Shown here one piece after another: positions 9,472 through 55,591 of a stretch of 64,000 bases of DNA. The position numbers and the translations under genes were made by a program. The notes under the pieces were generated by a model. That model ran no database searches, had not been told where the DNA came from, and worked only from the letters and a program-made list of their open reading frames with translations. This DNA comes from Utricularia gibba (Eukaryota > Streptophyta > Magnoliopsida > Lamiales > Lentibulariaceae), in NCBI GenBank assembly GCA_002189035.1, contig NEEC01000021.1, positions 1,240,001-1,304,000 of the forward strand, in the 5' to 3' direction. The number at the start of each line of letters is the position of its first letter. Positions within the stretch are counted from its first letter, which is position 1.

Positions 9472-12400
9472 ATGCCAGTCCTGCCGCTGGTACTGATCCT
9501 CGTCGCTGCGGCGGCGGAGGCGGCGGAGAATTACAGTCGCGCCGATTTTCCCGACGGATTCGTCTTCGGCTCCGGGACTTCGGCTTACCAGGTCGGGCTC
9601 TTCCTTACTGATTCTCGTTGCATTTCACATCCCGAGCATCGGATCGCGGTGCCTGAATAAAACTGTGCCGTTTTTTTCCAGTACGAAGGAGCGGCGTTTG
9701 ACGGCGGCAGAAGTCCCAGCGTCTGGGACACCTTCGTGCACTCCAGTTAGGGATTTCGAATCTCTCCCCCTTTCTGGTTGGATTGTCGAGGAAGGAGGAT
9801 TAAAAAAAAAGTTAAATAAATAATGATGCAACTACTTAAAAAAGTGATTTTCATTATTTTAAAGTTGGTGATCATGTGCTTCACAACTGCCGAGTACCTA
9901 GAAATAATATGGCTAATTGATTTTTTAATTGATTTTTACTATATTTGTTTGGTATGTTTCAGAATATTAACAATTAATTTTTAGTATATTTTCTCTGTAT
10001 ATTTCAGAATATTAATAATTGATTTTAACATGTTTGTTCGATATGTTTCGGAATATTATCAGTTGATCTAATTATATTTTAGCATAGCAATTGTGTTTGG
10101 TATGTTTTTCAAATATTATCAATTGATTTTAGTATATTTAGACATAGCAAATAAATTTCGTAATTCTTGATAAAAAGATATATTCTAATCTATATTTTTC
10201 ATAAAAAAATTTAATGACACGATAAATATTATAAAAAAATTGTAAAAAAATAAATTAATTAATGAAATTTACACGATTTTGACATCTGCAATCTATTTTC
10301 TTGGTGTTGTCCCAGGAGGGATGCCGAATGGGGACGTTACTTGCGACGGCTACCACAAGTTTAAGGTACAAATTCATTCACTCATTGGCTGCCGCCGTCT
10401 AGTCCGCCTTCCGTCCCACCGGACGGGACGGCGGGATCTGTTTTTCTCATCCGACGTCGCCTTATTAGGCAATCGCTCAGGCGAAGGCTAAGAAGTGGGC
10501 ATGCGCGAGTGTCTGGATGTTTTTGTTTAGTTCTTTACGTTTGAGTGACTGATGATGTTCTTGGGTTTTAGGATGATATAAAGTTGATGTCGGAAATGGG
10601 ATTGCAGGCCTTTAGATTCTCGTTCTCATGGTCGAGGCTCATCCCAAGTACAGATCAACGTTTAATTCGACAGTGTTGTATCTATCTCTTTCTCCTTACT
10701 GAAGAAGGGTTTTCTCTGCTTTGGACAGATGGGAGAGGGCCTGTGAATCCCCTGGGGTGCAATTTTACAATGACTTCATTAACGAGCTTGTGGCTCATGG
10801 TAATGATCTCTCCATTCTTGTTTTCGATTCCTTTACATGTTTCAGGATTTTCGTTGTATCGAGGTTAGAAAAAGCTTCTGAAACCCCTTGGAAACGTAGG
10901 CATTCAACCTCATGCTTCGTTGACACACTTCGATCTGCCGCAAGCTCTAGAGGACGAGTATGGGGGATGGCTGGATAGGAAGATGGTGTACGGATTTCTT
11001 CTATCGCTTAAGCTATTGAGTGCATCTTTGAGGCTGCATGTTGAGCTGTGTTTCGCCTCAGGGAGGACTTCACGGCTTATGCAGACGTGTGTTTCAAGGA
11101 GTTCGGCGACAGGGTGAAGTTTTGGACCACGGTTAGTGAGGCGAATATATTCGCCATGGGAAGCTATGGTCAGGGTATTTCTCCTCCCGGTCGTTGTTCG
11201 CCGTCCATTCAACCGGGATGCGTCGGAAATTCGTCCACCGAACCGTACATTGTTGGGCATAATATCCTGCTAGCGCATTCAGCAACGTGGAAAATTTACC
11301 AAGACAAGTACAAGGTAAATAAAAATACATGAAAGAATTTTTCACTTGCATGATCGACTAGAAACTATCCAATCAAAAAAAATTACAGACTTCTCAGAAG
11401 GGCCAAGTGGGGTTTAGCTTGTATTCCTTCGGAGTTAGTCCATTGACTGACGAGGAAGAAGATGTGATGGCTGCTCAGAGATGTTTGGATTTTTACATTG
11501 GTTGGTAAGACATATTCTATGTTCAAGAACAAGGCTGTTGGTTACAGAAATTCTACACTCCACTCATTTTGAGCAAACAATCTGCAGGCTATTTGATCCC
11601 TTGGTGTATGGTAGGTATCCCAGATCAGTTAGCGAGCGAGCTCGAGGTCGAATACCCATTATTTCAGAAGACGAATCGAAACAGTTTAAGGGTGCCTTTG
11701 ACTTCGTGGGATTGAACTATTATGTGGGACTCCATGTTAAGAATGATCCCACCATATTTGATGTCAACAAATGGGGCATTCAAGCTGATATTGCCATACA
11801 AACTTCAGGTGGCTCTTTGAAGGTCAGTAGTTTGATCAACCGCATCATGCTTCGACTAATCGAAACTTTCATTTTATTGTTGCAGTTCCTGGCTTTTCAG
11901 GAGGGCATTTACCAATTGATGGATACCCTTTAGACCCTTCAAGTTTTGTTCCATTCATGGGGTATCTTAAGGACACTTATGGGAATCCTCCTATCTACAT
12001 ACATGAGAATGGTCGGTTTCTCTGCCACCTTCAAGACATAGATAGATTCCAAACACTTGTTCCGTTATCATTTTCTAATGTGGATGTTATGCATCATCTT
12101 CGAAGGCCAATCAGCACAACGTACTCGAAACCTGACCGACACTCTGAGGGCAGATTATTTAGATGCCTACATTCATGCAACACTCGATGTAGTAAGGTAC
12201 AATTCCGAGTTTTTTTTCACACTGGGGTAGTTCAATTTAATGGTCTACAAGCTTCTTCATTGTTTTGGTTAAGGAATGGCTCCAACATCAAGGGTTACAT
12301 GTACTGGACTTTCTTGGATTGCCTTGAGTTGTTAAATGGATACAGTAGGGCTTTCGGGTTGTTCTATGTGGATCTGGATGACAAAGATCTCAAGAGATAC

Positions 12401-12520
12401 CCAAAGTTGTCTGCTAAATGGTACTCTGATTTCCTGAATGGAGATAACTCAAGAATATCATATGTGATAAATGATAAAACAAGCCAAGGAAGAAAAGAAG
12501 GGCTCTCCAACATTGTGTGA
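9472..12520 (+). CDS. Beta-glucosidase copy 4, one-base frameshift in exon 5 and Asn-to-Ser in the NE motif
   Basis: Close duplicate of copy 3. Exons: 9472-9591, 9682-9745, 10316-10365, 10572-10647, 10729-10799, 10900-10987, 11062-11314, 11389-11504, 11588-11808, 11886-12011, 12106-12196, 12274-12520. Every splice site is kept, and each exon except the first and fifth has the same length as in copy 3. Exon 5 is 71 nt rather than 72: a run of five G in copy 3 is four G here (10754-10757), so the frame is lost after LG. The acid/base motif reads TVSEAN instead of TVNEAN (AGT at 11135-11137); that Asn normally contacts the 2-hydroxyl of the bound sugar. The nucleophile motif YIHENG is present. 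Intron 2 is swollen by tandem repeats. The gene is either a very young pseudogene or an active gene with an assembly error at the G run; the Ser change would still matter. Confidence 0.85.
9946..10150 (+). repeat. Degenerate tandem repeats in intron 2 of beta-glucosidase copy 4
   Basis: About four imperfect units follow the pattern TGTTTGGTATGTTTCAGAAT, then ATTAACAATTGATTTTA, then GTATATT. They begin near 9946, 9995, 10030 and 10090. Intron 2 is 570 bp here against 256 bp in copy 3. Confidence 0.6.
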
Positions 12521-12798
12521 GGATATGCCAAACCAAATCAACTTCTGGTGTGCCTTTACATCTTTGCATGCAGGGATTTAGACCCCAAAGTTTCGTGTTT
12601 GTTTACATTATACATTACTGAATTCACACTTGTACACCGTGTATAAATACATTGAAGAAATGAAATCGGGAATGAATGATATACTTCTAGAATGGAGTAT
12701 CCTTGATGCAATAAAGTAAACAATGCCCATCCATTGTTCTGTTCAGCATGATAACAATATCTGAATCCGTTCTAGAAGAATGTACCTTTTCTGTCAAG

Positions 12799-12999
12799 GA
12801 GTGGCTCCGCCTACACGTCTGGGGCATTCTTAGAGTGCTCTGAGATGCTAGGAGGATACAACTCAACCTTCAAGATGAAGTATGTGAACATGGATGAGAT
12901 TTACAGAGTTCTCTGCTAAATGGTATTCTGATTTCTTGAAGAGGAAGAAGTCTGGGGAGTCTTCTGTGGCTGCACAAATCATGGGAGAAAAGTCAGGTT
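12799..12999 (+). pseudogene. Eroded last exon of another beta-glucosidase
   Basis: After an acceptor-like CTGTCAAG the sequence reads, with one frame change at about 12900, as GSAYTSGAFLECSEMLGGYN, then STFKMKYVNMDE, then [20 protein letters not shown]. This is the GH1 C-terminal pattern of the intact copies (GSN..GY..W.f.DClELL.GY...FGL.YVD and FSA.WYSDFL). No upstream exons are recognisable between copy 4 and this point. It is more divergent than copies 3 and 4, so it is an older relic at the right edge of the array. Confidence 0.75.
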
Positions 13000-13153
13000 C
13001 TTCATTTAACATCTTATCTGGGATCACTCCTCGCCATGTACTTTTCTGTAGCTCTGCGTAGTTCCATAAGAAGCTGTTTTGTGTTTGACGCCTACCACGT
13101 TTACCAGAATTTTCTGTTGGTAAGGCGTCAGTGTAACTTCTCATGATGCATTC

Positions 13154-14643
13154 TCAGGCAACAAGCATGGCTTTCTCAGAACTAGGCACCACCACATCTT
13201 CCCTCATGATAGACCTGTACTTGTCTCCAACTTCAGCCCCAGCTTGCACAAATAGTTCAACGACCGCCGGAAGCATTCCGTAGTAACTCTTTAAAGAATC
13301 CACAAGAAGTTGATTATTAAGAGAAGAGACATGCCAGACATATACCGGAGGGACGATGTCATCGAACATTGCCTCCTGCCAAGCATGCTGCCCGTCCCTC
13401 ATCTGGTGCTTGAAAGCTTGGCATTGCCTCACTCTGTGACCCTTTGGTCCTACTTGCACTTCCAAGCAGTAGCCACAAGTTTGCACTTTGTACTTTTCCA
13501 TTAGTTTAATCGTCCCAGCTTGCAGGTTCTCCCAAGCTCGCATTCCCATCTCAGCAAAACCTATTTAAGATGATCGATGTAAAATTTACAACTTCAAAGA
13601 TGAAAACAGAAGAGAACAGATCTTGCTCTCCATAATTCACAAGTTCAAGCACTAAGGAAATACCTTTAACATCTCTAGATTGCAAGTTGAAACACTCTTG
13701 TCTTTTGTTCCAACTTTTAGACATTTCCCAAAATCCATAAGGTTGTATACCATCTCCAGAGGGATCAACTTTCGGATATCTCTTTTCGAAATCAAATGTT
13801 TTTCCTGCTACACGGTATATTGGGAATTCCCGTCTTCTAGTTGGATATTCAGTGATGTCTACGCCAGCCTGAATGCAGAGCTCCAAGATGGCTGGAATCC
13901 GATCAACTTGGAGTCTCTCGTCATGAGATACTGCTCTTCCTAGCCTGTCATACAGATGAAACGACTCTGTTTCTGGAAACAAGTGATCAACACCCCTCTA
14001 ACCCAGGCATGCTCTATATACTTTCCCCCAAAACACATGTTCTGATTTTATGTGGGGGGTTCCCCACATGCACATCTCCACAAACACTGCATTTTTATGG
14101 AGACCCACAGTTAGCTCTGGGTACCAATACGTTCATAAGATCTGAAGCATATGAAAGAATGTATTATCACCTACAGACGAAAATGGGGATGCTCTCAGCT
14201 ACCCTTGTGAGACAAGTCAGCAACTTGGCTCTAGCAGCCATAACCTTGTGAGCAACAGGGATCAGATGTTTCACCAATAGCCCATTTTCTGGAGGTTTTA
14301 GCGTGACTTCCTCCACCAGTCTTCTCTCTCGACTCTCCAATCTTGACTTACGCTTAACTTCGGTAATATGAGTCACCCACGGCTTTTTCTCAAACCTTTT
14401 CAGCTTCCTTGGTAGCTCTCCCAAACCAGTACCTCTAGAATACAAGGCGCCGGCACAAACCCGCAAATCCCCAGAGTTTGACATGGCGACTGTGCTGCGC
14501 CCCCTGTAGAATCCCCAGCACAGGTTCAATAGCAACCGGGATCGACCAACGGGCATTGACGAAGCGAAAAAGCTCGAATTTCGCCGGACTGATTCAGTCA
14601 GGAATTTCATCGAAGGCGTTTCAAGCGAACTCCACAGTATCAT
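13154..14643 (-). CDS. APO3: APO3-like organellar RNA-binding protein (APO family), frame broken twice in exon 2
   Basis: APO proteins are plant-specific, zinc-binding, organelle-targeted RNA-binding proteins; APO1 acts in chloroplast group II intron splicing. Exons in transcript order: 14643-14171, 14086-13664, 13560-13154. Exon 1 carries PPENGLLVKHLIPVAHKV and ends in FVC, which splices to SVCGDVHVG to form the first CxxC. HKIRTC, EHAWVRG and ESFHLYDR follow, then LELCIQAGVDI. Exon 3 carries the second APO domain: VQTCGYCLEVQVGPKGH, QCQAFKHQMRDGQHAWQEA, then YVWHV. Exon 2 needs two extra bases to stay in frame: one G near 14034 (after IRTC) and one in the C run at 13993-13996 (after AWVRG). 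Both are G/C shortenings. The ATG at 14643 is my choice because codons further up begin with TTG; later Met codons are possible starts. Similarity is closest to Arabidopsis APO3 as I remember it. Confidence 0.8.
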
Positions 14644-14973
14644 CGAAGCAGGCGCTGCAAATAGAAACGAAGAGCGTGGTGGGCCCGGCGGCAAGTAGGC
14701 TATAGTAAACAGTTTAATGAGCTTCTATTGAACCCATTATGATGGGCCACGCGGGAAGGCCCATTATCGCGATTCGGAGCTTCTATCAAATATATTTAAA
14801 ATCTAAAATTATATAACATATTTTATCTTAAATTATATAATTAAAATATTAATTCAACTACCAAATGAGTGTAAAAAGTTATCACTTTTCGAGACATGGA
14901 GGAATAAATAGTTATTCTTGGGCTTGTTCAGGGCAGCCTTTGCGCAGGAGTTCAAAGTTGGAAAAACAGCAGA

Positions 14974-15790
14974 TCAATGCTTGTTCTTGGGCTTCTTCAC
15001 AATCATCACAGAGCAGTGTGCATGGTGAGAGCAGTAATCACTTACACTGCCCAGAACAGTCCTGCGCAATACCATCAACAGAAACAGAATCGATCATGGA
15101 GTGCATAAGGGATTTGAGTAAAAAAGGAGGTTCAAGCATTCAAACAATGGTGGTTTCACTGTTTGCTGACAAGTTACTGCAAGATGAAAGGCAAACAAAC
15201 AGCAGATACCTCTTGAGGACTCCATAGCCATGGCTACCAACAACAAGGATAGAGGCTTGTTGACTCTCCACGGCCTGGCAGAGAACATGTCTGGAATCAC
15301 CTTCGATGATCAAATAGACCGCATCATTGACCTGCAACAGAGCATGAAGCTAATCCTTTAATGGGAATTGATCTTGGAGAAGGGTCTAAATCGTTTTACA
15401 GAGTGGTTATTTTTACCGATTTGGCTTCACAAACTGCTCTAGCCTTCTCCAGAACCTTTGCAGCCACCTTCTGCAAATCCTGCTCCACAGCTGGGAGCAG
15501 ATCTGCATTAGCTGCAAATCACATGTGCACAAATGACGATCAAGAAAAGGAAACCATCTGACCACAATCGGAGCCCAATTGAAGTGCAATAAACCCTAAA
15601 TTAAACCAAAAAATCTAACTGTGCAAAAATCCGCGACTAGCGGAGGCTGCCGCCGGCTTCGCGTGCACTACAACAAGCCTGAACGGGGAATTTGCCAGAG
15701 CGGGGGGAACAAGTGATCCAGAGTCCACTCCAAAGCGTAGAAACTGCGGTCGCTATCATCAACGCCCACTACAACCACCGATCTCTCCAT
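14974..15790 (-). CDS. Universal stress protein A-like, four exons, one-base loss in exon 1
   Basis: A small cytosolic nucleotide-binding stress protein of the UspA family. Exons in transcript order: 15790-15620, 15511-15417, 15331-15210, 15061-14974; about 158 residues, the family norm. It starts MERSVVVVGVDDSDRSFYAL, with the usual strand-1 VGVD motif. The ATP-binding pattern G-x2-G-x9-G-S is present across the exon 3/4 junction (GSHGYGVLKR then TVLGSVSDYC), and the C-terminal strand reads CSVMIVKKPKNKH. In exon 1 the frame slips at a run of six G on the + strand (15702-15707): before it the protein reads LDHLF, and one base out of frame it reads FRLVVVHAKPAAAS, the expected second strand. 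Exon 1 is 171 nt, and the downstream phases require 172. Everything else is intact. Confidence 0.85.
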
Positions 15791-17152
15791 AGATTTCTCT
15801 GAAAACCAGAACTGCTTCTGAAACTGCAGCGATTCCGAGCATCTTTATAATGGCGGAAAAAGGTCGAGCCCCTCGTGGAGCACGTCAGCAGCCATCTTTA
15901 TCGTGCGAAGCTCGAAGACGAAAACGCTTCTTCGTCTTCAAAAACAGACGTGAACGCTGCAAATTATTCACCTTCAGTGACCAAAATACCCTTCCTTCCC
16001 GCCAGTTTAGATTTCCTACCCCCATTTGTACTTTCTATTTTGGTATTTACCTTTTTTCCATTTAATAACGCTAAATAATTCTGATTAATAAAATTTATAC
16101 CATTATTATCAAATACAAATAATTTTATTTCAATAATAACATAAATATTCATTATTTTCTTAAGAATATGTAAGGATATAATTTTCAAGAAGAAAAATCA
16201 ATAATCTTAACAATATCTAAAAAAAGCAATAAAGCTTAGTTTATCTTTAAAGATGAACCGTTCATCCTTCTTTCCAGATCACACCACTATTCTGCACTTT
16301 TACCAAATTGCCCACTAAAAATATCGTCATCATTTTATTCACATTTTTATCCTAAAGTTTTTACTCATTAATCTATTTTCCTTATTTAGAGTATATAATA
16401 GGTATGTTCTATAATTTGACACAGTGATTCACATTATGTAAAATATAATTAACTTTAAAATTATATGAATAATTTTAAGATTGTAAAAATGTTTTATGGA
16501 ATTGTATAAATTATATTATAAAATAATATATATATATATTAAATATTAAATTTTTATAATTAATATATTATTTAAGATTTAATAAACTCAATAACTTATT
16601 AAGTTTATCACAAAATATGAATTTAATTTTATTATAAAACAATAAAATATTAATATTTTCAAATACTCAAAAGAGTCACCTTAGTAAATTATTAACACAG
16701 AACAAGATCAATGTCATGTGTGAGATGATTCCAACATTACAAATGCTCGTAAATTGATTTATTGAAGGTCGATTATATATACATTATTTAAATTAATCTC
16801 TTAATTTATCTTATGATAAATAATATATGCTAATAATAAGAAGTGATATTTAACATTGTATATTAAATATTTTAAAAATTTAGCTAATTATATTGAAATA
16901 GATTCACTTAGAAAATATTATTTATTTATTATGAAATAGTTTGATATTTTGAAATATTATTTTTCTATTAAATATATTTATACTTAAAACGTACTATTAA
17001 ACAAAATTCTATAAAAAGACGTGACATAAATTGATAATTTTCGAAATAAATTATTGCAGAGAAATGATGAGAATGAACTGATCACCATCGGCATCCTTCC
17101 TGCCATGGCAACCTGGAGCAGAGTTCAGCATCTCCTCCGCCGTGGACGCTGA
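15791..17152. other. AT-rich spacer between USP and ABCC genes
   Basis: No gene is seen. The first 250 bp would be the promoter and leader of the - strand USP gene. From about 16050 to 17050 it is featureless AT-rich DNA. The last 100 bp is the 3' UTR side of the ABCC gene. Confidence 0.6.
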
Positions 17153-20100
17153 TCACAGCTCTCCAGATCGGTTAGCGTATTCTTCAACGAGGGCGCCGAA
17201 GAGGGACGGCTGCTGCAGAAGCCGCGCCGGTTTATCGAACTCCTTGGCCTTTCCGGCGTCGATGACCAGCACCCTGTTGCAGTCCATCACCGTGGGTATC
17301 CTATGCGCGATGCTTATGATGGTGCAGAGGGCGAACTCCTCGCGGATGATCTTCTGGATCACCCCGTCGGTGTACGAATCGACGGACGCTGTGGCTTCGT
17401 CCATGAAGAGAAGCCTGCTGCGCTTCAGCATCACTCTGCCTAAGCAGAGGAGCTGCCTTTGGCCGACGCTCCAGTTCTCGCCGTTGTCGACAACTGCAAA
17501 AGGAGTAGCGTGTTGGGGTGTTTGCGGTGGAGGGATGGAGGTAGTTGAGATGAATTACCGGCGGAGTCGAGCTTCCCCGGCTTCCCGGAAACTGCGTCTT
17601 TGAGCTGGCAGCGCTCTAGGCTCTTGGGGAAGAAGGATAGGAGAAGAAGAACGTTAAGCATGAGGCTCTTAAACCAGGAAAAAACGAAGAGCTTTCAGAG
17701 GTGATCTGCTACCTTCCATATCTCTTCATCGGAGTAGATCCCCGTGGGGTCGATGTTGCTTCTTATTGTCCCTTCGAAGAGAACAGGTTCCTGGGGAATG
17801 ATTCCGAATCTGGACCGCAGATCATGAAGCCCCAGATGGGAGATGTCCACGCCGTCGATCACTATTTTCCCTCCCGATGGCTCCACCAGCCGGAACAAGA
17901 CCTGGATAAGAGTCGATTTCCCGCCGCCGGTGCGACCCACAATGCCGATCTTCTCGCCGCCGGTAATGCTCAGTGTGATTCCTTTGAGAACCAGGGGAGT
18001 ATCTGGGCGGTACCGAACCTGACATTTGTGAAAGGATTCAGTCAAACCACCGTTAAATTCGATTGCTCCGGTAAGAAATTTCGAATCATCACCTCCACGT
18101 TGTCGAGATCAATGTTTCCATGAGTCGGCCAGTCGGGAGAAGGGAGGCAGTCCTTCTTCCTCCATGCTGCCTCAGAAGGTATCACTGTGAACTGCTTGAT
18201 CCTCTCAACTGAAACCATCCTGTTTTCCATGAGGCAGCTGATGAAGATTGTCCAACACAGGGATGAGTTCAGGGACAAGCCGTACGACAGGGCTAAACCG
18301 ACGTTCTCTGGAAGACAATCAACCAGAAACTTCAGCATCGCTATGGAAAACTAATGAATCAGATTCATTCATGGCTAAAAAACGCACCTGGCTTGATGAT
18401 GCTGCTCGGCAAAACGATCATGAACATAGTAGAAATACAGAGGATGAAGCTTCCGATCAGCTCCAAACGGAATCCCAGCCACTCATTCGCTGCATTGTTG
18501 TGGAAATCCATTCGTATATTCGCGTTCACTCGTTTGATATTGTCGAAGGAGAAGGCTTCCTGCTTCCTGAAACATCTGATGGTCATAACTCCGGTGATGC
18601 TCTCGGAGAAATGATGAATGATCGGCGCTTTCGTGATCGAATCCAAGCGTGTCAATTCACGGGAAGTCGCAAGGTAGTAGCCCTGAGACAACCAGAAGCA
18701 GCATGAGGTTAGTTTCCTGAAAACAGAAAACCAGAAGCAATGGAGCACAGAGAGAGTACCCTGGCCCAGAAATTGAGCCACCCAGTGGAATGAGGAGGAT
18801 AATTGTAGGCCACGAATATTGGCAGGTGATCACGATGATGCTCGCTAGAGAAATCACCATCGCAATCGTTAGATTCATGAAGAAAGGGATCAAGATATCG
18901 ACATTCGTCTGATCATTTGATGCCTGCGGAAAACGAAAGGTGTAAGACTCAGCAACCATCTCCAAGTTTCATGAAGCACAGGGAAGCATGCATCCATGGC
19001 ATTACTTACCCTTGTGAGGATTCTACCAGAAGGCGTGGTGTCAAAGAACGACATGGGAGCATGCAGAATACTCTGAAGTATCTGTCTGAAGAAAATCTGG
19101 GATGTCTTTAACCCCATCAGGGTGATCAGTAAGCTTCTTAGGATGATCAGGACGAAGGCAACCAGAGAGATCAAGGCATATACTTCAATAAACCAGGAAG
19201 GATTGAATGATTCTGCATTTTTCTCAGAGGTTTCATAAGCAAGCCAATAATCACTTAGCATCAGAGTCACTTGCCAGATCACGGAAAGGAACAAAGCTGC
19301 TGCAACACCCCACCAGCCAAACGATTCAGTAGCATATAACTTGTAAACTCTCAGACTCACTTTCCCAGTAGCTCTTTCTTCTTCTTTGATGAGTTTGGAT
19401 TCCTTCTTTGATTTTGATCCGGATCTGGATTCCAAATCCCCTGAGGTGTTGTTTTCTCCATTTTCAGCACCATGCTTGAAAGACTCCTTTTTGGATAAGG
19501 TAGGTGCAGGTTTCGCCTCATTTTTGTTTTCGACATCGACAAGCTCCATGGAAGCTTCATGCGCCAAGACTAAGGATTTGAAATCCATTCCAGAATCCAG
19601 TAACTGATCATACTTCCCAGATTGAACTATCATGCCGTCCCTCATAACCTATTTTGATGATAAAAACATCAGTAACAGAACTTCAGACGCTGTGAATTCT
19701 TACAGAATTATATGAGCATACCAGGATTTGATCAACATTGTGCAGGAAGTCGACTTGATGAGTGACCAAGATGATTGTTTTGCCTCTGAGAGCCCCTCTA
19801 ACACACTCCTGAAAGAAGAAAGAAAGAATAAGAGGTGTGCCATGTTCGAAAACAGTATTCGGCTTTTAAGCACCTTGAAGATCTCAGATCCAGTGTGAGC
19901 ATCAACTGCACTGAATACATCATCAAGGAGATAAATATCACAATCTTGATAAACTGCTCTAGCAAGCTGAATCCTCTGCTTCTGGCCACCACTCATATTG
20001 ATACCACGCTCTCCAATCTCGGTTTGATCTCCGAATTCCATCATTTCCAAGTCTTTCTCCAAGCAGCAGACTCTAACAGCCTTGTTGTATCGATCACGGT

Positions 20101-22378
20101 CCATTGGAAGGCCAAACAGTATGTTCTCCTGTATTGTCCCATTCTGGATCCATGCTGTTTGCGCAACATATGCTGTGCTGCCACACACTCTAATCTGCAA
20201 AAGTAACAAAAGCAAGAACCTTTATACATGATCCAGGTATGATGTTTGTTGTTGCAGGGAAACTGATGATTTGAAAAAATGGTACCTTCCCCTTTGACTT
20301 GTTCATCTCCCAAGAATTGCAGCCAGCAGAGAAGATTTACCAGATCCCACTGTTCCAACAATGGCAGCAAGCTCCCCTTTTCTTATCTCAAAATCCAGAT
20401 TTTTCACAGCTTCATCTCCACCCTCATCATCCCAGCTGAAAGCTGCATCTTTCACTTCCACAGCGATATTCCCATCACAGCCGTGGACACGCTCAACTGA
20501 TGTATCCGCCAACTCCTTGCTGATCATGAACTTGTCCAGTCTTTCAAGAGATATTATAGCTTGGGAAAGTGAGATCATTGCCTGAGGAAAAGTTCTGATT
20601 GGCTCCTGCAGCATCCTTAAGATAGACGTTGTGGTAAAGACAGTTGCAACTGAGAGAGGAAACTTAAGCAAGATAGCCATTCCAAATGTGATAGTACATA
20701 TGACTGCTGGAGTGCTCCAAAAAACCACAATATTTGCTGCCACTGCGTACATAAACTTAGAAAGCCATCCGAATTCGGTTTCGCGAAATGCCTGGATTCT
20801 GTTGTTGAAGTGTTCTTCCCAGGCCTGAAATTTAATAACTCTCATGTAGTTGAGCATCTCATTCACTGCTTTCATTCTAGCATCACGGTTGCTCATGATC
20901 TTGAACTGGAAGTTGTTGTTTCTCTTAGTACGAATAAGCACGAAAACGATAACAAATGCAAGTCCCAACAGTGTTGCAATGGTGGAAGTTCCCAAAAACT
21001 GATAAAGAATCACCAAGGCCACAGCTATCTGCAAGGGCATCAACCACAAGTTATGCAACTGCAGGATCATATCACCAAGCTGTTGAGTATCAACAGCCAT
21101 GTAGTTTACAATCTGCCCGACACCATGATCTTGTCTAGCCGAGCCTGTCAGCCTCAAACCCTTCTGGTATAAAGAAGTAATGAGAACTGATCTGATGCGC
21201 ATTCCCAGTTTCTGTGTATTGAAGTTGAACTGGTGCCCGCTCAGACCTTCAACAAACTTTGCAACTAACAGAATGATCACAAGATAGTATCCTTCATAAG
21301 GAGAAGTCCGCTTTCCTGATGTGAAATCTACAAAACGCTGGATCAATGACGGTCCTACATACATCACACACAGCCTCACTATTGCAAGAAAAGCAGTGAA
21401 AAAAAATTCTTTCCAAAAACATAAGATTAATGTTTTAGCAAGAGGGTGCTTTGCGCTCTCCCCGGGCCAGTTTTTCTGGAAGAGCTCACACAACCCTTCA
21501 GCTCTGTCATTCGGTGAAAGGGAAGGCACATCATCGAGCTCCAGAGGAGATCTGTATCCTTTCTTCAGAAGGGGATCCATCCAAATCCAAAAAGCTTTGG
21601 AAAAGATCGAAGCTGAAGCAAATCCAGTCACATTGGACTCACTTGACATTGTCTCATCCTCATCTTTGCCATTTGAAGCAGTTACTGCTTCGGAGACCTT
21701 GATGACTTGAATCCCTGTCAAGCCCTTAAATGCAGGAATGACAAGAATGGTGGACAAAGCGAAGAATGCCATCATTGCAACATCATCTAAACCCAAACTG
21801 GAACCTACTTCATGGTATAAAATCAAACGTACAAGGCCTGTACCAAAGAAAAATGCTAAAATGCAGAACTCCGCAGTCCAATATAAGCGAAGAACTAAGG
21901 GATGTCTCAAGGCTTTGAATCTCTTCTCATGAGCAACCAACACAACAATCACCGCATGAGAAATAGCTAGCAGCAGCCAACACACGCCATCTATGGTCTT
22001 CCAAGGGAGCTCACCTCTTCTAACAAAAACCAATGCGCACAAAACCGCTGAAGACACTGTCAGAAGCAAGCTGACGATGAAACTGAATTTAAATAGTGCA
22101 TTCGTTTTCACCACAACACTCTTCTCAGCAATCAAAGGGCTGGTAATTTCAGTATCAGAACTGCGACTTGATGCGAATCGAGACAAAAGCCTTTTGCCAG
22201 CTAAAACAAGTAAAGACACCAAGAAAAGAGCATTCACAGCAGACAACAGGACTCTCTGAGGGCAGGGGGAGAGGAAAATGAATCTCAGCCAAAGAAAAGC
22301 ATCTGAAACCGGGTCCCCTAACGGTTCCACCACAGAAGGAGAACACGAAAGTGTGGTAAACCAAGAAGCCGGTGCCAT
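17153..22378 (-). CDS. ABCC4: ABC transporter subfamily C (MRP type), ABCC4/ABCC14-like, ten exons, two one-base losses
   Basis: A full-size MRP-type ATP-driven pump of about 1,508 residues (family about 1,500) for organic anions, conjugates or folate-like substrates, in plasma or vacuolar membrane. Exons in transcript order: 22378-20286, 20194-19874, 19808-19722, 19648-19010, 18923-18760, 18682-18388, 18307-18093, 18018-17713, 17622-17559, 17493-17153. N-terminal and core membrane segments fill exon 1. NBD1 has Walker [10 protein letters not shown], signature MSGGQKQR and Walker [13 protein letters not shown]. The second membrane domain is in exons 4-7. NBD2 has Walker [10 protein letters not shown], signature WSVGQRQ, Walker [13 protein letters not shown] and H-loop IAHRIPTV. 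Two frames slip by one base: at LAAILGE in exon 1 (C run 20309-20311) and at [12 protein letters not shown] in exon 5 (18781-18783). Exon 5 is 164 nt where phase needs 165. Start: ATG at 22378, giving [13 protein letters not shown] as in relatives; upstream in-frame codons have no ATG. Confidence 0.92.
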
Positions 22379-22427
22379 TTTAGCAATCAGCAGGTGCACG
22401 ATCTGGAGCAATCTAACTTCTTCTGCT

Positions 22428-22454
22428 TCAAATATTCAGCAAACTCCCTCCCAT
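22428..22454 (-). other. Short upstream ORF in the ABCC leader
   Basis: An ATG at 22454 opens an eight-codon frame (MGGSLLNI) that ends in TGA at 22428, 49 nt before the main ATG. Whether it lies in the mature leader depends on the unmapped transcription start and on a possible 5' UTR intron ending near TGTCTGCAG. Confidence 0.4.
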
Positions 22455-24206
22455 TCCGTGACGTCTGTAAACCCTGCAGACAAACTACAAGAACTCAGAA
22501 AACATCATCAGAGAAGCAAAGATTAGATTTTTAGAAACTGAAACCCAGAAAAACCTTTCAAACTAATCCCCAAACGGAAACCCACGAAGAACTCCTATGC
22601 GGGAACTAAGTAGTAGATTCGAAGAAATGAAAAATCAAGTCTTTAACAGACAGAAACCCACAACGTGATTCATCTGCCTGCAAAGAAACGAGACGAGCGA
22701 GACATATCGGTGACAGAGGCGCTAAGAAACGAGACGAGCGAGACAGGGCTCATTAATGACGAGAAGAGAAGCAGATATAGAAGCAATGGAGACGAATTCC
22801 AGCACGTCTCATGGAAGTGAAAATACTCCTAAAATGTTGCCTCAAGACTATTAATTTTTTTTCGCTCTGGTGAAAACTCCACCACAAAAACAAACAAGCT
22901 GACGAGCCTCCATCTCCATTCCCATGATGAGAGGAGAGGAAGCTTTCATGGTTGAAAAGTATGCTGGGGCTTCTTCTGCCAACGCTGTCGTCTCTTACAC
23001 ATTGTTATTAAGTTGACGGCAGGGGCAATTTCTGTCACAGTCTATTTATATTCTTAAAAAATAATATCAATATTATATTCAATTATTTTAAAAAAATAAA
23101 CCTGATTTCACTCATTATTAAAAAAATTCAATTATAATCTATGATATTGAAATCATTAGTAAAATAATATAGGATAAATCATAAGCCCAATCAAATGACA
23201 CCTAACATGCTAGAAGATTGATTGGTTGATGGTGCATTTTATTTGGATTTAAATAAATTTTATGTATTGAGATTAATTTTTTTAAGTATTATGTTAGCTA
23301 TAGGGATTAGAAATGATATCAAATGGTATTAAGTAAAATAAAAGAGGGATGTAATTTTAAATAAACCTATGTACATGAGATTAAAAAAAGATTGTATAAT
23401 TTCAGATTTATTTAAATCTATCAACTAAACATCTTATAATTTATAATAATACTTTAAACTTTTATAATCCAATAAGCCAAATACACCCTTACAATTCCAA
23501 TCATCCAATAATTTAATCAATAGTAACTATCACTTATATTCATTATGATAAAATAATTGATATAGGAATAAATCCAATTGAATGATCTATTTGGATAAAT
23601 CATATAATTATTCACATTTTCAAAATTCCTATAATAATCATAATAGAATTATAAAGAATATATATACTTATGTATAATAAATTACAAAATGTTTAAGCTA
23701 ATATTCACGATGCTGTGAACCAACTATATCTTCAAATTCAACAAAATTTTGTGATAAGATTTTTGTTATTTGTACCTAAAATTTGGCAAATATAATGATA
23801 CTTTTGCTAGGATTATATTAAGTTCGTATTTTGTATAATTTGAAGTGACGATTATTACACTGTATTAACATCTCACATGATTCTAAATAACGCTGCTCCT
23901 ATCGCGTTTTATATGATGCACCGTTATAACGGTCTTAATGTCAAAATCAGTTAGTTTTAGTAACAAGAAAAGATTAAATATGAAATTTCATAAATTTGAA
24001 GGTAAAATGTTTACAAAAAATAAGTTAAAGAATATATGACACAATTTTAAAACATATGAATTAAACCAAATCGTACCCCCAAACTCAGTTCACCCCAAGA
24101 TAGATAAATGATGCACCGACGAGGTATGCAAAATAAATAAGGAATGAGGTGGTTGGGCTGTGATCACTGAGCTCATGCTGCTGCTTTCCTGTCCACAGCT
24201 ACTCCA
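22455..24206. other. ABCC leader/promoter and AT-rich spacer
   Basis: 22455-22990 is the likely 5' leader and promoter of the - strand ABCC gene. It contains a perfect 22-bp direct repeat (22683-22704 and 22724-22745, core GAAACGAGACGAGCGAGACA). From 22990 on I see only AT-rich spacer without a gene. Confidence 0.55.
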
Positions 24207-24292
24207 GGAATGAATGAATGAATGAATGAAGGAATGAATGAATGAATGAATGAATGAATGAATGAATGAATGAATGAATGAATGAATGAATG
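24207..24292. repeat. (AATG)n microsatellite
   Basis: About 21 copies of the tetramer AATG occur with one internal variation (GAAGG near 24229). Open frames through it (FIHS repeats on the - strand) are composition artefacts. Confidence 0.95.
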
Positions 24293-32500: not shown

Positions 32501-35321
32501 AACTGATATCTGCCTGCATCAGTGGAAGGAGAACTATTCCCGCCACTCAAATTACTTCCCTTTCCAGTTGTAATTAGGGTCTTCTTCTTCGAGCTTGAGG
32601 AACGAGTAGAACCATCCACCACAGTTGAATTGGTTGCCTTCGTAGAACCATTCTTTTTCTTTCCATTACTTGTTGTTTTCACAGCAATGCTTGGGTGCTC
32701 CTGATCAGGATATCCAGCAGCAGCTCCCATTGGCGTAACTTCAGAAATTGGGCCAGGAAGCACCACAGAAGGCTGATAAAGGGCTCTTAAGGCATTAGTT
32801 GTATGTTCCTCGGGGATGTAACAGCGATTCATTCCAGGCCTGAGGGAAGCGAATTCAAAAATTATCCATTTTTCATGTATACAGAGATTTGCATATGTAT
32901 TTTGATATCAGAGAATTTCTTCAGCGGTCACCATACTTAAAAGCAATACACATGGAAAGCATGAAACCATTACAAGTGGTAGTTCATTTCAAAAAAAAAA
33001 AAAAAAAAAACTGTACCCAGCAATCAGAAATAAATGTAAACTTACAGCCAGGACAGCATGCTGCATGTCCATTTTTCAGGAAGACTTTTGGGGTCCGTAC
33101 CCAGAGGAAGAAGTCTCCATATATGGCATAGATCACAAGAGACCCAATCTTCATTGACCATGGGCTTTAATCCTGTTGGAGCATCAGTGCTAATCCCATT
33201 CACAACAGGATTGGCTGGATGAGAGCCAATTCTAGGATATTTTTCTTTAGATTGGGGATTCCCCTCCTTGGACATATTATGGTCTTTACTAAAGCTTCTT
33301 CTTACAGGAAGATGATGTTCTTTTAACCTTCCCGCAGATGTCAATTCCCCAGATAGTGATTCATTGTCATCTTCATCATCATCCAATTCCTCATCTCCGA
33401 AAAAGTCTTTGTATCTGTTGGCTGTTTTTTCTTTCTCCTTCTTTGGCTCATGTGAATCATTTTTCAGATCAGCAAAGCAAGCATCAGCAGACTTCTCATC
33501 TTTATGAGCCATGGCCAACCCAACTGCTGACTCATCTTTTCTAGAGCATGCTCCTTGAGAACCTGCAGCCTTAGCTGCCTTTAGCTTTTTCTTGTCCCTT
33601 TGTGATAATTCAACAGAAGGTTTGACATCTTCAGTTCGCACAGATCCTCTGTTATGAAAAACTAACTGCTTTGACATGTCAGGCAGTTCAGCACCACTGC
33701 AAGTTTTCTTCAACTTGGAGCCACTGACTTCAGGCTGATCCAAAGGATGAGGTACTTCAGCTATTTGTGAGACAATAGACGGCGCAGTTGCATTGGCACT
33801 CAAACTTTTGTGCTTGTCATATTCAGAAACATTGCATGATGAACCCAGAGACCTAGCCGAGTTTCCAACTCTTCCATCTCTTAAACTAGGTGCAAAAGGC
33901 ATCTCCTTTCCAGGATCTCTACTAAAATATTCAGAACTGGAAAAACGCCGAGGTTTTAAAGCATTAGAGGCGTCTTCACATAACAAATCATCATCATTAG
34001 TCTCCTGCTCCTTTCTCAAAGGCGTAACAATCTTATCCTCAATACTGTTGATCTGATCGGCTATTTCAGTGGCAGAAGACTTCTTTTCCTGTGGAGCTTT
34101 CTCATTGCTGCTACAAGAATGAAACCCATTGATTAACAAGGCCGACTTCTCTGTGCTCATACGTGTCCTAGCTGTCCTTTGGCTTTCGTGCTTTCCTCCA
34201 CGCATTGTATTCAAGTGAATAAGATCTTCCGATAAAGGGGACAAAAGCACATCTACCGGAAAGGATGTCATCATCTGTCCAAACAACAAATTGGTAAATT
34301 AGATATTTGAAAGATAAGTGCAAACATATAGCAAGTATCACCAGCGTTCACTATTGACCTTAAGAATGCTGGTTGGTGATTCATCTGGCATATTCGTGAT
34401 CTTATGATGTCCCCGTTCACTGGTGGCCGGACTCCCATCAAGTGAAGATGACGGGGAGACAAGACCAAGACCATTGTAGATATCAACATTCTTCTTTGTC
34501 AACAAATTTTCTGAGCCAACCTTGATACGGAGCTTTAAACTATTTATCGGCTTCTCATTTCTTCCACTTTTTGCGGTCGACTTATCAGCATTTCCAGACT
34601 GCAACTTGTCCCTTATGCTAGACACACGTCGTGTAGATGCAGGCTCCCCAGAAACAGCATTTGACTTCCATGCGGGTGAAGCAGCCACAGAAGAAAGTGC
34701 ATTCGGCTTACGCTCCTATAAGAAATGAGAAAAGCAAGATGAGATCCCCTGTTTCCTATGCGCACATCGGTTACATGTGAAAGCTGTTTGTAGATCTCAT
34801 GAAACTATCCAGTTATACCTTTCTAGGAGATTTTTGTGAGCTGTGAACCGCCTCTGGTGGACGCTGATATGTTGGCAAGAACGAACCATAATCACCAAAT
34901 TTTGCCCCTATTGATATTCAAAGATAAGCTGAGTGATCAAATGCCGAACAATGATATATCTTTCAACTAGGTATAAATAGTTTAATTTCCTACTTACCCA
35001 AGTTTTCCACTGAGACTAAACCTTCAAAATCTTTCTGGAGATGGCCCAAAACACTTTGAACTTTCTCACCCTTTTCACAAAGAGTGACACAGATTTCAAT
35101 TGTTGAAAAAACTGACAATGTAACAACAGACAAGTGCAACAACAGACAATATCACAAAGACAACTTACAATGTAAGAGAGAGAATTGATATCAGGGTAAA
35201 CCGCTGAATCCTCATTGCCCCTGTGGTAATTACGAGCCTCCCCTTCTTCAAGTTCCGTCTCTTCCATCTCTGGTACCGGAATCGATCTGTCCCTCCAATC
35301 TTTTCTACTCACGGATATCAT
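29560..35321 (-). CDS. CW-type zinc-finger protein, about 1,533 residues, eleven exons
   Basis: A large nuclear plant protein whose CW domain belongs to a fold that reads methylated histone H3 Lys4. Exons in transcript order: 35321-35169, 35070-34998, 34907-34819, 34715-34359, 34274-33046, 32839-32421, 32310-30710, 30630-30473, 30303-30143, 29999-29833, 29754-29560; phases agree throughout. The N-terminus has acidic MEETELEEGEA, then HLQKDFEGLVSVENLGAKFG and YGSFLPTYQR. The CW domain at about residues 596-642 reads DWVSCDLCHIWRLLPLGTD, then LPEKWTCSMLSWLPGMNRC, split by intron 5. The middle (exons 6-7) is Ser/Lys-rich and probably disordered, with RKRK and KSRKNK nuclear-signal-like clusters. 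The conserved C-terminus includes FLHGASLMEL, YCAREYEKSEDMAAAALAYK and VEGFLRLVRLAMEALNS. ATG at 35321 is used (the codon before is TTG). It is intact. Confidence 0.92.
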
Positions 35322-38161: not shown

Positions 38162-38470
38162 ATGGAAAGAGTGAGGGACTTGGCATCCAAGAAAGCTGCA
38201 GTCATCTTCACCAAGAGCTCATGCTGCATGTGCCACAGCATCAAAGCATTGTTTTACGAGCTCGGTGCAAGCCCTGCAATCCACGAACTCGATCAAGAAC
38301 CAAGAGGCAAGGAAATGGAGTGGGCCTTGAGAGGGCTGGGATGCAACCCCCCCGTCCCCGCCGTCTTCATCGGAGGCGAGCTCATCGGCTCCGCCAAGGA
38401 CGTCATCTCCCTCCATGTTGACGGATCTCTCAAGAAAAGGCTCATCAGTGCCAAGGCCATTTGGCTATAG
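38162..38470 (+). CDS. CC-type (ROXY) glutaredoxin, CCMC active site
   Basis: A single-exon, 102-residue plant-specific glutaredoxin. It has the redox motif SSCCMCHS at residues 20-27, the glutathione-binding VPAVFIGGELIGS block, and ends in KAIWL, close to the ALWL end that class members need to bind TGA bZIP factors. It would therefore act as a redox-linked co-repressor of TGA targets in nitrate, defence or floral programmes. Intronless structure and length are normal for the class. A second member lies 2.5 kb downstream on the same strand. Confidence 0.95.
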   Translation: MERVRDLASKKAAVIFTKSSCCMCHSIKALFYELGASPAIHELDQEPRGKEMEWALRGLGCNPPVPAVFIGGELIGSAKDVISLHVDGSLKKRLISAKAIWL

Positions 38471-43668: not shown

Positions 43669-44244
43669 TTGTGACATCGTTGGAGATATCCCTTGTGGAA
43701 TGACAACAGATGTAATAACTTCAATATCGTTTGATATTGTACGTTTTGATTATCCAATCTATCCGATGGATGTCGGGTTTTATACAATATTTTTTTTATC
43801 AATTTAGAAGAAATAAAAATAATTTCAAATCTTGAAATTTAAGGAATAAAAACCAATAGGTTTTTAAATTCAAAAAACCTTATAAATATTTTTTATTAAA
43901 AGAATGATTATTCGGGGAAATTAATGTTGGAAAAAGAAATGTTATTTATTGGTCGGAAGCTCGAATTTGATATATTATATAATAATAGAATAAAAAATAG
44001 AAAATCATGAAGGTTTTGCCACGCCTGAAATTGATGAGTCAGAGGGAGCAATCACAAACGAAATTGAGCTCCTCTAGGGCTGGGAAAAGAGGGCTAGACG
44101 GCGTCGTTTTCTCTGATACCCAGGGATTCGTCGTCGCCAAATTGGAGCGACTATGAATGCAGATTCTTCCGCGTTTCGTGTCTCTACAGTGCATTGATAA
44201 TCTGTGCTTGGATCGGAATTGTAGGGTCAACTGGTGGGAAACTG
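43669..44244. other. 3' UTR and promoter between B-box and carrier genes
   Basis: About 130 bp of 3' flank, then AT-rich DNA to 44000, then a GC-richer leader of the carrier gene. The carrier reading frame is open for some codons upstream of its ATG but contains no earlier Met before a stop. Confidence 0.55.
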
Positions 44245-48700: not shown

Positions 48701-49144
48701 CGTTGGGTTTTGGCGTTTCTCTTTGACCCTTCGGTATCTGAAATGTCTCCACGCGCCACGCCATCACCATAATTTGCTTTACTGTTTTTTTCCGCTTTAT
48801 AAAGTGCCGGTGGCAGCACAGAGGGGGAAAAAAGATATTATACCAGTCCTTTTTTTTTTGGTTTCTGATTTATCTTCCCCTCGGTTTCTGTAATTGCGTG
48901 TTTGGGTGTTCCTTGTTTTCCCTGATCTGTTGGTGAGGATTGAGTAATCTGGACTCACCCGCTTCCCTTTTTTGCGTTACCTGTTTGGCCGCTGCTGCTT
49001 TTTCTGCGTTTCTTGTTCCGCGGAAAAAGCGCCGATTTGGGGAGGAGATGCGGAAGGGGGGGTCTGTAATTGGATGCCTAGGATGAAGAAAGGCGTGTGC
49101 TTGAGACTGGGTAGCTGAAGATCAGGCACAGCGAGGCGTCGGGG
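45732..49144. other. Long spacer and GID1 promoter/leader
   Basis: No gene is seen. 46320-46710 is a GC-rich island with a G-box/ACGT cluster (ATCACGTGACGTAAC at 46373-46387), but no convincing exon. 46730-48550 is AT-rich. From about 48600 the sequence becomes GC-richer, consistent with the GID1 promoter and leader. Confidence 0.5.
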
Positions 49145-50469: not shown

Positions 50470-52269
50470 CGGAGGAGCACTTTAGTTACAGTGGTAGAAA
50501 AAAAGTTGCCGCCTTTGTCCATACTTTCTCCTCCTCCCCAGGGGAGTTGCAGTTGCAGGTGACGAGACGCAAGGTAAAAAGGGTGAAGTTGTCAATTTAC
50601 TTAGGCTGTCGATCCACCCCCAAACGTGGGTAATTATCGTCATTATTACCGTGGGTTATTACTACTATTGATGTATTAGGATCAGCTTCTACCTACGTGA
50701 TTTACTAAATGTATATCAAATACTTATTATTTCATTTCGATCCCTTAGAGTTAGATATTCAATTTTCATGGTTTTACTTATCTCATTTTTGACAAAAAAA
50801 AACTTTTATAATATTTGAAGTATTATTCTATTAAGTACGTATCAAGATTGTAAACTAATACAGTATACCTTTTTGAGGAATCGTGTTGTATCAAATACCT
50901 GATTATTATTTTATTTCAAATCCTTTGAATTCCTCCTGTTGTATTTGTTTTTTCATATTTTCGTACTCTTTAAGTAAATCACACCTTGTTTACTAACGTC
51001 AAAAAAGAGGAATAGATTAAAATATACAAGTCATGAACCAATAGTGTGAACATGGTAGTAAGAACTTATCACATTCTAAATAAAATATATCATATAAGAT
51101 TAAGATAATCTATTTATTTAATTATATTATTTTTTCTGTGGGTAATCCATGTAGTATATTGTTACTAGACCCAAAACAAATAATATCGTACAAAAAGAAT
51201 ATGAATTAAATCATACAATGCAAACTAGAAAAAATCGGAAGATCGAATTAGTTTTTTTTAAGCCGATACGAAATAATGGGTTGGATTGGATTGAATGTGG
51301 TTTAGGTTTTTGAAGTTGTATTAGTAGGTGATTAAAGAATAAGGATGGGGGGCAATGGGGATGGATGCACTTGTCAACCCAACGACGGGGGCGGCTTTGA
51401 ACCATTTGTGGCTACGGCGTAGCGCATTCATGGTGGGCGCAACTCCGCCACATTCCCACGCTGTCTATTTCCCAGGGAGCAATCAATATTAGAGATGAAT
51501 GAATTAGAAAATATGGTCGACCACTTTGTAATATATCTCTAAAAAGAATGGGTCAACTCAAACTTCATCAATGTGTGTTTATATTAGATGTGTAAAACGG
51601 ATCATTTAGAAATCCGATCATTCTTCGTATTTCTTTCACATATTAGGTCAAAGTTTTTCCATTGAATATGTCAAATTGTCTCATATGATGAACAACTTCA
51701 AAATATATACTTGTAATATAAACTGATTATGATTGCACATTCATTTTTTCTTTTTTTTTTCATGTATCACTTAGATAATCTTTAATGATTTCCAAAAATG
51801 CTGACATGAATTTCTGAAAATCACTTTTATTTTTACGAAAATGATTTATTTGAGTAAATTTTAGACTGTGGAAATCATTTTTAGGAAATTCTGTTTTCTT
51901 ATGAAAACTCAATAAAGAAAATCATGTCATTATTTTCGAAAATCAGTAAAGATGATCTTAAATGATGTTTGATAATTGTATAATCAAATTTATATATATT
52001 TTTGTTTGATTAACTAGTATATCGTACATATCAATCTTATATTACTATATCATTCATATAATCATTTTTTAAGCATTTGAGGGGTATATATAAATAGAGG
52101 AGTAAGGGGAGGTAAGCTAATTATAATCTATATTGTTTACATACTTAAATTTCTATTTTTGTATATGAAACGTTATATATAATTGAATATACATATTACT
52201 ACCGAATCTTACAAAAATGGTGACTTTAGTATGATAATTCAATTCAATAATTCTATTAATATTCCTGGG
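50470..52269. other. 3' UTR and AT-rich spacer
   Basis: About 200 bp of GID1 3' flank is followed by AT-rich DNA in which I see no gene. A small GC-richer patch at 51335-51480 has no clear coding content. Confidence 0.55.
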
Positions 52270-52695
52270 TTCAACCAAACCCAGAAACGAGAAGAGTGAA
52301 GACAAAGGCGAGCAGCATGGCTGGAAACATCGGGGACTTGGGGTGGCGAACCAGAGCGTCGTTGTCGGGGAGGAGGACTTTCTGCTCGCTTTCTCTTGTT
52401 CCTTTTCTTTTGGTTGCTTCTTCCTGTTAGACACTCTCTCCTTTGTCTCCTTGGAACGAGTCAATTCCTGCCCTATTTTGTCCGCGCCATCCGACGGCCA
52501 GGATTCGCCGCCGGAGCTTGTGTGTGGCTCCGGCAAGCCCTCAGGATTGGGCAGTTTTGTTCTCCACGACTTCCTGCGTGTCCCCGTGTCATCCATGACG
52601 ACTCGCTCCGTCACCAAAGCAGATGCTTCCAAAATTAGATTCAATGTCTCACATGTTTCTAGAGGAAGCATGTTGCTGAAAAGCATTGACGTCAT
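52270..52695 (-). CDS. Hypothetical protein, GC-rich ORF, strand uncertain
   Basis: The - strand frame opens with ATG at 52695 and is coding-like to about 52270; the frame itself runs on to a stop at 52153 through AT-rich DNA. It has a mixed N-terminus (LPLETCETLNLILEAS), a charged middle (SKETKERVSNRKKQPKEKEQ) and a hydrophobic, Cys-containing end (RCFQPCCSPLSSLFSFLGL). The + strand also holds a 122-codon frame (52343-52711). I recognise neither product. The sharp composition change from the AT-rich flanks is the main reason to list it. Confidence 0.35.
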
Positions 52696-52736
52696 TGATC
52701 CCAGTATTTAATAACTTAATAATAAAATTAATTTCC

Positions 52737-53342
52737 CTTGTTTAAAAAATTAAGTTTACCTATGTTATTATTTTGATATAATTAATCTTTAATATTTGAA
52801 ATAATTGACATAAACAGTCCATAATTGTTTAAAAAATTAAGTTTACCTATGTTATTATTTTGATATAATTAATCTTTAATATTTGAAATAATTGACATAA
52901 ACAGTCCATAATTGTTTAAAAAATTAAGTTTACCTATGTTATTATTTTGATATAATTAATCTTTAATATTTGAAATAATTGACATAAACAGTCCATAATT
53001 GTTTAAAAAATTAAGTTTACCTATGTTATTATTTTGATATAACATAAACAATTGACATAAACAGTCCATAATTGTTTAAAATTTAATTGTTTACAACAAT
53101 GTTTAGACGTGGTTTACCTACTTTAATATTTGAAATAATTGACATAAACAGTCCATAATTGTTTAAAAAATTAAGTTTACCTATGTTATTATTTTGATAT
53201 GAAATAATTGACATAAACAGTCCATAATTGTTTAAAAAATTAAGTTTACCTACTTTAATATTTGAAATAATTGACATAAACAGTCCATAATTGTTTAAAA
53301 AATTAAGTTTACCTATGTTATTAAGAAATAATTGACATAAGT
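52737..53342. repeat. 87-bp minisatellite array
   Basis: Eight units carry TTTAAAAAATTAAGTTTACC or a close variant, starting at 52741, 52828, 52915, 53002, 53075, 53162, 53231 and 53294. The first spacings are exactly 87 bp and nearly identical. Later units are internally shortened (73, 69 and 63 bp). Each ends with TTGACATAAACAGTCCATAA. The array is non-coding. Confidence 0.93.
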
Positions 53343-54410
53343 TACAACTAATTGGTAGTTTATAAAATAGTGGAGATTAATTATACTCGATATTCAAATA
53401 ATGAAGAATAAAAATATTTAAAACATAAAAGTTAGGGATTAAAATATGAATTATAATTATAGATAGGTAAGGATCAAGAATATGAAAATATTATAAAACT
53501 ATAAAAGTTGGGGGGAGTATCCTATCCTAATACCGCACACTGAGCCACACCTATTGGACCCTAAGTGGGCCTACTGGGCTAGCAATGTTGACCAGAGAGG
53601 TATGGATTCACACGCCCAATCCCTCCTAATTGAGCCTAACATCTAGAGATGGAGGCTCAATGTATTTGTTAGAATTATCTTTCAGTAATAATTTTTTTTA
53701 ATAAAAAATTCAAAATTATTCTCTTAATGGAATTAACAAGAGATTTGAGACGTGGTCACAAGTTACTAACTTAGGAACGATATCAAAAATTAAAATAAAC
53801 ATAAGAGCTATCTTGTATACAGTATTCTAAGTTATTTACAATCGAAATTATGACAAATGTTTCAAATAAATTGAATATCATTATTGGAGGTACTATTAGA
53901 ATTACAATCTATGAAATATTAATGAATATTAGTTATTGGAAAATAGTCTATTTAATTTTTTGTAAATTAATGTACAAACCCATCATTTGGTATATATATC
54001 ACTTTTTTATTTTTAAAAAATAAAAAAAAATTAGGGATAAAAAAAATATTCTGAAATTATTAAATAGTTACACGAAAATGATTTATTTTAATATAACGGT
54101 TTGCCTTTTCGTGGCGTACCGCGATCACGCTGCTTGCAGGCTTCAGAAGCTGTTGCTGAAAGAAAATCGCTTTTTGCTTTTGAAAAAGCGACTTTTGCTG
54201 CCTTTTTCGGTTCTTGGTTCAATTATTTATTTCTTTCTTTTATAAATGCAGAAAATTGTTTTCTTTTTTTAAAATTAATAAGGAGAAATATTATTGCCGG
54301 ACGGTACAAACGGTAAAGCCTTGAGTACAATAAGCAAAAACGTGTCTTTTTTCAGTAATTAAAATGGATTATCGACAGTATTAAAAAAATGAGAGAAATC
54401 CAGACAGAAA
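53343..54410. other. AT-rich spacer with a GC patch and hairpin
   Basis: No gene is seen. A less AT-rich patch at 54100-54215 includes a 9-bp perfect hairpin (54167-54191). The last 60 bp is the 3' UTR side of the LRR gene. Confidence 0.5.
54167..54191. repeat. Inverted repeat / hairpin
   Basis: TCGCTTTTT (54167-54175) pairs with AAAAAGCGA (54183-54191) around a 7-nt loop. Allowing one bulged base extends the stem to 13 bp. It may be a transposon end or a chance low-complexity palindrome. Confidence 0.5.
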
Positions 54411-55591
54411 TTACGCTTTCTTCCACTGGGAGCACTGCTGAGTTGGCCGTGTCTTCTGATTCCCAGCTTTGAGAGGACACGGCGTCGCCACAGGGAGCAC
54501 CATGCAGTTGTACTGCAAACACAGCGATGTGCTCACGGGAATCTCCGCCGTCGGATTGATCTCGATCCCGGTTAGATAATTGTGTTGCAGATACAGAATC
54601 TGAATGCTCGCTGACAGAATGCGGTCCACGAAGCACCCTGGAACCTCGCCGGTGAACCGGTTGTTGTTCATGTACAGAACTTGGACCGTCGCGAAGGCAG
54701 GGGATAGCTCGCCGGAGAAGCGGTTGAAGCTTAGGTCGACGGTGGGGATTCTGACGGCGCCCACCGGTTTCACGTGGCCGGAAAACTGGTTCCTCTGTAG
54801 TTGCAGAGTTGTTATGGGGAATGTAAAGAGGACCGCTGGGATTCCGCCGTTGAATCTGTTCATGCTCAGATCGACGTAGTTTAATTGTTTTAGACGGGAA
54901 AGGATCCGGCCGACCGGGCCGCAGAGACGATTCGAGGATAACGAGAGGTACTGGAGAGACGGCGGAAAACCCTGCCGCGGAATCCAACCGGTGAGCTGAT
55001 TCTGCTTCAAATCAAGACGCGCTAATGTAGTCGATACGAAAGGTGGGATTTCCCCGGCGAGATGGTTGTGACTGAGAATGACGTTCGTCAACGCCGGTAA
55101 CGTGCCCAGGGAGTACGGAATCGATCCATTGAGCTGATTGTAACTGAGATCGAGCGTCTGCAGAGCTCGGAGACGCCCGAATTCAGGGGGATCTCGCCGG
55201 AGATGTAATTGCGACTGATTGCTAAGAACCGGAGGAATTTCAATTGCGAGAAAGAGTGGGGTAAAGAACCCATTATCCGCCCAGGAACGACGGTGAACTC
55301 CGCCAGAGCGGAGAGTTTCCCGATGGAGGGATCCAGTCTACCCATCAACCCAGAGGAGCCCGCACGGGGATCGCCGAGATTGAGCGCGATTACTCTATCG
55401 GCGGCGCAAGAAACCCCGGGAAAAGTACATGGGTCGGCCGTGAAATCCCAGGAGGAGAAGTAACCGGAGCCGGGCATATCCTTAATACTCCTCTTGATGG
55501 ATTGGAGCACAAGGAAATCACTGGGGTCCAAAATCGCGCCGGCGACGAAGACGTGGAGCACGAAAATGAACCCAAAAACACTGATACTCAT
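54411..55591 (-). CDS. Secreted leucine-rich-repeat protein (LRR-only), single exon, one-base loss
   Basis: An extracellular LRR protein of about 393 residues without kinase or transmembrane domain at its end, related to polygalacturonase-inhibitor-like and LRR-receptor ectodomains. Signal peptide: MSISVFGFIFVLHVFVAGA. An LRRNT-type cap follows with SSWDFTADPCTFPGVSC, then about ten LRRs of the plant LxxLxLxxNxLxGxIP type (for example LSYNQLNGSIPYSLG and LDLKQNQLTGWIP). The end carries four Cys (LCLQYNCMV, ATPCPLKAG, QQCSQWKKA). The frame slips by one base at a G run on the + strand (55186-55190): upstream reads SGEIP and downstream, one frame over, EFGRLRALQTLDLSYN. The predicted join PEF fits the LRR spacing exactly. 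ATG at 55591 is chosen because it begins the signal peptide. Confidence 0.85.

Follow-up and report, generated by a model that had tools for sequence, protein, structure and literature searches.

Seven frame breaks beside G/C runs in five otherwise complete plant genes are very probably errors of the assembly

When several genes are complete except for a shift of reading frame, the genes may have been lost or the sequence that records them may be wrong. We faced this question in the window, by which we mean the whole 64-kb stretch analyzed here (G000:C321:1240001-1304000). The plant assembly to which it belongs comprises 516 contigs and 100 Mb, and we read the entire window. An initial annotation had described seven frame breaks in five otherwise complete genes. 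All seven are present in the window sequence, and each amounts to a net change of −1. The genes and their breaks are as follows, in window coordinates:

9473-12520, plus strand: beta-glucosidase copy 4, otherwise complete
10754-10757, plus strand: frame break in beta-glucosidase (GH1) copy 4, net −1, at a G run of 4
13157-14670, minus strand: APO3-like gene, otherwise complete
13993-13996, minus strand: frame break in the first APO motif of the APO-like gene, net −1, at a run of 4
14025-14029, minus strand: frame break in the APO-like gene, net −1, at a C run of 5
15100-15795, minus strand: universal stress protein (USP) gene, otherwise complete
15702-15707, minus strand: frame break in the USP gene, net −1, at a run of 6
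17156-22376, minus strand: ABCC transporter gene, otherwise complete
18781-18783, minus strand: frame break in the second transmembrane domain of the ABCC transporter, net −1, at a run of 3
20309-20311, minus strand: frame break in the ABCC transporter immediately past the Walker A motif (14 protein letters, not shown), net −1, at a run of 3
54414-55590, minus strand: LRR gene, otherwise complete
55186-55190, minus strand: frame break in the LRR gene, net −1, at a run of 5

Each of these breaks adjoins a G/C run of 3 to 6 bases in a gene that is otherwise intact. Six of them were placed by frameshift-tolerant alignment against paralogues or against the gene's own repeat. Beta-glucosidase copy 4 reads GGGG at 10754-10757 where copy 3 reads GGGGG. 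Both APO breaks were placed against the gene's own intact second APO motif; the second of them is the C run at 14025-14029 and had been annotated at about 14034. The USP break was placed against a paralogue (L002), the ABCC break at 20309-20311, in the nucleotide-binding domain, against two paralogues (L005 and L011), and the LRR break against two paralogues (L087 and L088) that are both intact at the site. The remaining ABCC break, at 18781-18783, shows as one open frame giving way to another, and any base would fit there; the ABCC paralogues are too distant in that stretch to identify the base lost at 18781.

The initial annotation also held that every lesion is cured by adding a single G or C. 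This is true at each site, but the cure is not unique, as other bases restore the frame as well. Indeed, most window breaks fall within codons for Gly or Pro, where the frame returns whichever base is added, and paralogue DNA directly shows the missing G only at 10754. Because the cure by G or C is not unique, the claim about G and C rests on the run context. In the window, seven of seven breaks lie at a G/C run of at least 3, compared to 22% expected for random deletions of similar location uncertainty (p = 2.5e-5).

The window has further features of its own. Its beta-glucosidase genes form a tandem GH1 array in which two decayed remnants stand beside three full copies, and the acid/base motif, usually NEP in GH1 enzymes, reads NEG, NEA, and SEA in copies 1, 3, and 4 (window positions ∼1720, 7567, and 11137). 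A GAAT microsatellite occupies 24200-24290, and an AT-rich tandem repeat with units of roughly 100 bp occupies 52730-53340.

We surveyed frame breaks elsewhere in the same assembly through Pfam searches of long-exon families, counting a break wherever neighboring parts of a single gene were in different frames. The stretches around the breaks, along with other loci, were aligned to intact paralogues to resolve the sign of each change. In the GRAS, HSP70, KCS, and exostosin genes the frame change was −1 nearly throughout. Over the whole analysis, all 28 breaks that were resolved against intact relatives were −1, with no +1 among them. Two genes (L047 and L064) carried two −1 losses each. A net change of −2 in a GRAS gene (C244:1855) proved on paralogue alignment to consist of two separate −1 losses. 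The single apparent +1 in a GRAS gene (L061) looks like an intron. Three exostosin breaks without a close reference (L069 to L071) read, by table coordinates, as two changes of −1 and one (C4:2798) that is either +1 or −2 with a stop. The counts exclude a cluster of losses at C316:33599-33952 and the breaks in L058 and L059 (at the end of C414 and the start of C416), all of which lie towards contig ends, as well as the decayed genes L060 and L067. With coding lengths estimated by eye, the rate was about one break per 3 kb of coding sequence, from 13 in about 40 kb of GRAS genes and 7 in about 23 kb in the window. The breaks occur genome-wide and independently of gene function. The pattern first described in the window is therefore real but not local: the shortening of G/C runs is a fault that runs through the whole assembly, and the window is not special. 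The 5.8S rRNA, sought in the assembly as a non-coding yardstick, was not found there.

One HSP70 break is common to contigs C241 and C304 (L072 and L073; C304:2234-2238.5 kb), so it is reproducible rather than random, a point against undercalling. The two contigs are identical there for 3.5 kb, break included, and then diverge, so as independent assemblies of one locus they were uninformative.

The run context was then examined over all tested lesions. Among these 27 lesions, 23 lay at a G/C run of at least 3 (22% expected; p = 5e-12), 16 at a run of at least 4 (5% expected), and 11 at a run of at least 5 (0.9% expected; p = 4e-16). The same 27 showed no enrichment for A/T runs. Within the GRAS genes, the shortened fraction of G/C runs was 2 of 3128 (0.06%) at length 2, 1 of 602 at length 3, 1 of 164 at length 4, 2 of 32 (6%) at length 5, 1 of 7 (14%) at length 6, and 5 of 5 at length 7. 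This assignment takes the lost base to have been an extension of the run; in L056, among the five at length 7, the lost base could also have been an A. Of 61 A/T runs of at least 5 in these genes, none was shortened. The lesions therefore lie in homopolymer runs at a rate that rises with run length. The comparison of G/C with A/T runs in other genes of the same assembly, which had been proposed along with the initial annotation, gave the result predicted for undercalling when it was made by Pfam searches and paralogue comparison. Three lesions (L045, L047a, and L064a), at runs of only 2, count against undercalling.

Paralogues allow run length to be compared with breakage at one and the same site. 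Four GRAS genes (L047, L048, L049, and L056) all break at a PGGPP motif, with G/C runs of 4 to 6 left behind, and a fifth (L050) breaks at this motif also, although the exact base is unclear. Their close paralogues L024 and L035 encode the same PGGPP motif with codons that give runs of only 2 to 3, and both are intact. The LRR genes echo this pattern, in that runs are short in the intact paralogues L087 and L088 where the window gene is broken; another LRR paralogue (L086; G000:C2:440600-441800) has a −1 break of its own in a different C run. On these sequence comparisons, gene breakage follows run length and not the role of the gene.

A second contig covering the same locus offered a different kind of comparison. 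The 38-kb contig C316 duplicates part of C412 as an unpurged alternative copy (L081 to L084, L033, and L034; C412:832-856 kb), with 99.6 to 99.7% identity in two blocks (about 15 kb) and a more divergent stretch between them. In the well-matched blocks C316 is one base short at five G/C runs (C2, G2, C4, C5, and G4) and C412 at none; C412 has single-base losses there only in one run of 9 T and one of 11 A. A GRAS open frame of 615 amino acids in C412 is reduced to 412 in C316. One-sided differences at short G/C runs are not what real alleles would be expected to show, although five events by themselves are weak evidence, and the two contigs may be allelic, in which case some of the differences could be real. 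Multi-base losses in C316 cluster at 33599-33952. When we looked in the same assembly for a second contig carrying the window genes, none turned up for the genes tested: the part at 13-23 kb was matched only distantly, and the LRR gene matched only itself and its paralogues.

The broken genes show signs of purifying selection. Measured against intact paralogues in the surveyed genes, pN/pS was 0.02 to 0.36 in 15 of 17 broken genes, and the HSP70 copies with a break fell at 0.02 to 0.06. The two higher values (L045, 0.59; L055, 0.64) were measured against a distant reference. Constraint was equal on either side of the break, with pooled pN of 0.14 and 0.15 and pooled pS of 0.60 and 0.61. The relaxed constraint of pseudogenes, with pN/pS near 1, is thus not seen in the surveyed genes. 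The mixture of stops, changes of both signs, and lost splice sites that marks pseudogenes is not seen either, in the surveyed genes or at the window sites.

These observations make it very unlikely that the genes are recent pseudogenes inactivated by true one-base deletions. The breaks do stand in the deposited sequence, they interrupt open frames as in true plant pseudogenes, and the beta-glucosidase array does hold true decayed remnants (window 4980-5090 and 12780-12990). True plant pseudogenes, however, also have stops and larger deletions as well as changes of either sign, and the breaks here come without these; a GRAS copy that has truly decayed (L060; G000:C244:2105500-2106200) looks different, as it has several frame changes, lacks segments, and contains a stop. 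Real inactivation would further require that about 30% of the GRAS genes, several HSP70 genes, and members of other conserved families were each killed solely by one or two −1 events, with no +1 among 28, with the same motif struck in several paralogues, and with pN/pS still low on both sides of the break.

Slightly less probable again is that many conserved genes of the plant truly have shortened G/C runs, through a genome-wide mutational bias that is tolerated or is rescued by slippage on the run at the level of the RNA or the ribosome. In an assembly alone, the bias itself, its dependence on run length, and the retained selection would all look alike under this reading. Against it, an error mode that is known and common predicts all of these features with no need for a new mechanism, the alternative contig C316 shows one-sided losses, and long runs are in some cases intact, as is a C run of 7 in the glutaredoxin gene near window position 38350. 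The faintest of the alternatives is that the gene models have been misread and a short undetected intron or an alternative splice site absorbs the frame change. Plant genes do have many introns, and the frame change in L061 is of this appearance, but the two frames meet or overlap at the window sites, leaving no space for an intron, and the paralogue alignment is continuous across the window sites that were placed by alignment.

Homopolymer undercalling in the assembly, the reading preferred in the initial annotation, is instead supported by the exclusively −1 sign of the resolved breaks, their position at G/C runs, the dependence on run length, the purifying selection on broken genes, and the one-sided losses of C316. 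Judging from the sequence, we put the probability that the seven breaks are base-level assembly errors of this kind, and not biology, at about 0.96; the true window genes are probably intact. Under this reading, base calling and consensus would have dropped one base from G or C runs, the probability climbing steeply with run length, and later polishing would have left the shortened runs unrepaired. We infer that a long-read platform was used and that the true DNA would carry the longer run.

Errors of this kind have been described before. Homopolymer errors in long reads are mostly deletions, and accuracy is lower at C/G than at A/T homopolymers (PMC8486125); deletion errors are most frequent after four to five identical bases, and they fragment genes (PMC12007338). 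The breaks described here resemble nanopore and other long-read homopolymer errors in that deletions dominate, scale with run length, are worse at C/G, and fragment genes. They differ from such errors in general in that the resolved coding breaks fit G/C runs while A/T runs are clean. In an Illumina-polished nanopore assembly of rice, 1,475 gene annotations were wrong, at 1.06 errors per kb (PMC7736813). There too, single-base deletions broke annotated genes, but the errors clustered where short-read coverage was poor, whereas here they appear in every family surveyed.

The consequences reach beyond this window. Annotators of the assembly would label about one-third of the genes in conserved families such as GRAS, along with several HSP70 genes, as pseudogenes or split models. 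Where an otherwise clean gene lacks a single base at a G/C run, assembly error should be the default explanation, and claims of gene loss drawn from this assembly would be unsafe until it has been polished with accurate reads.
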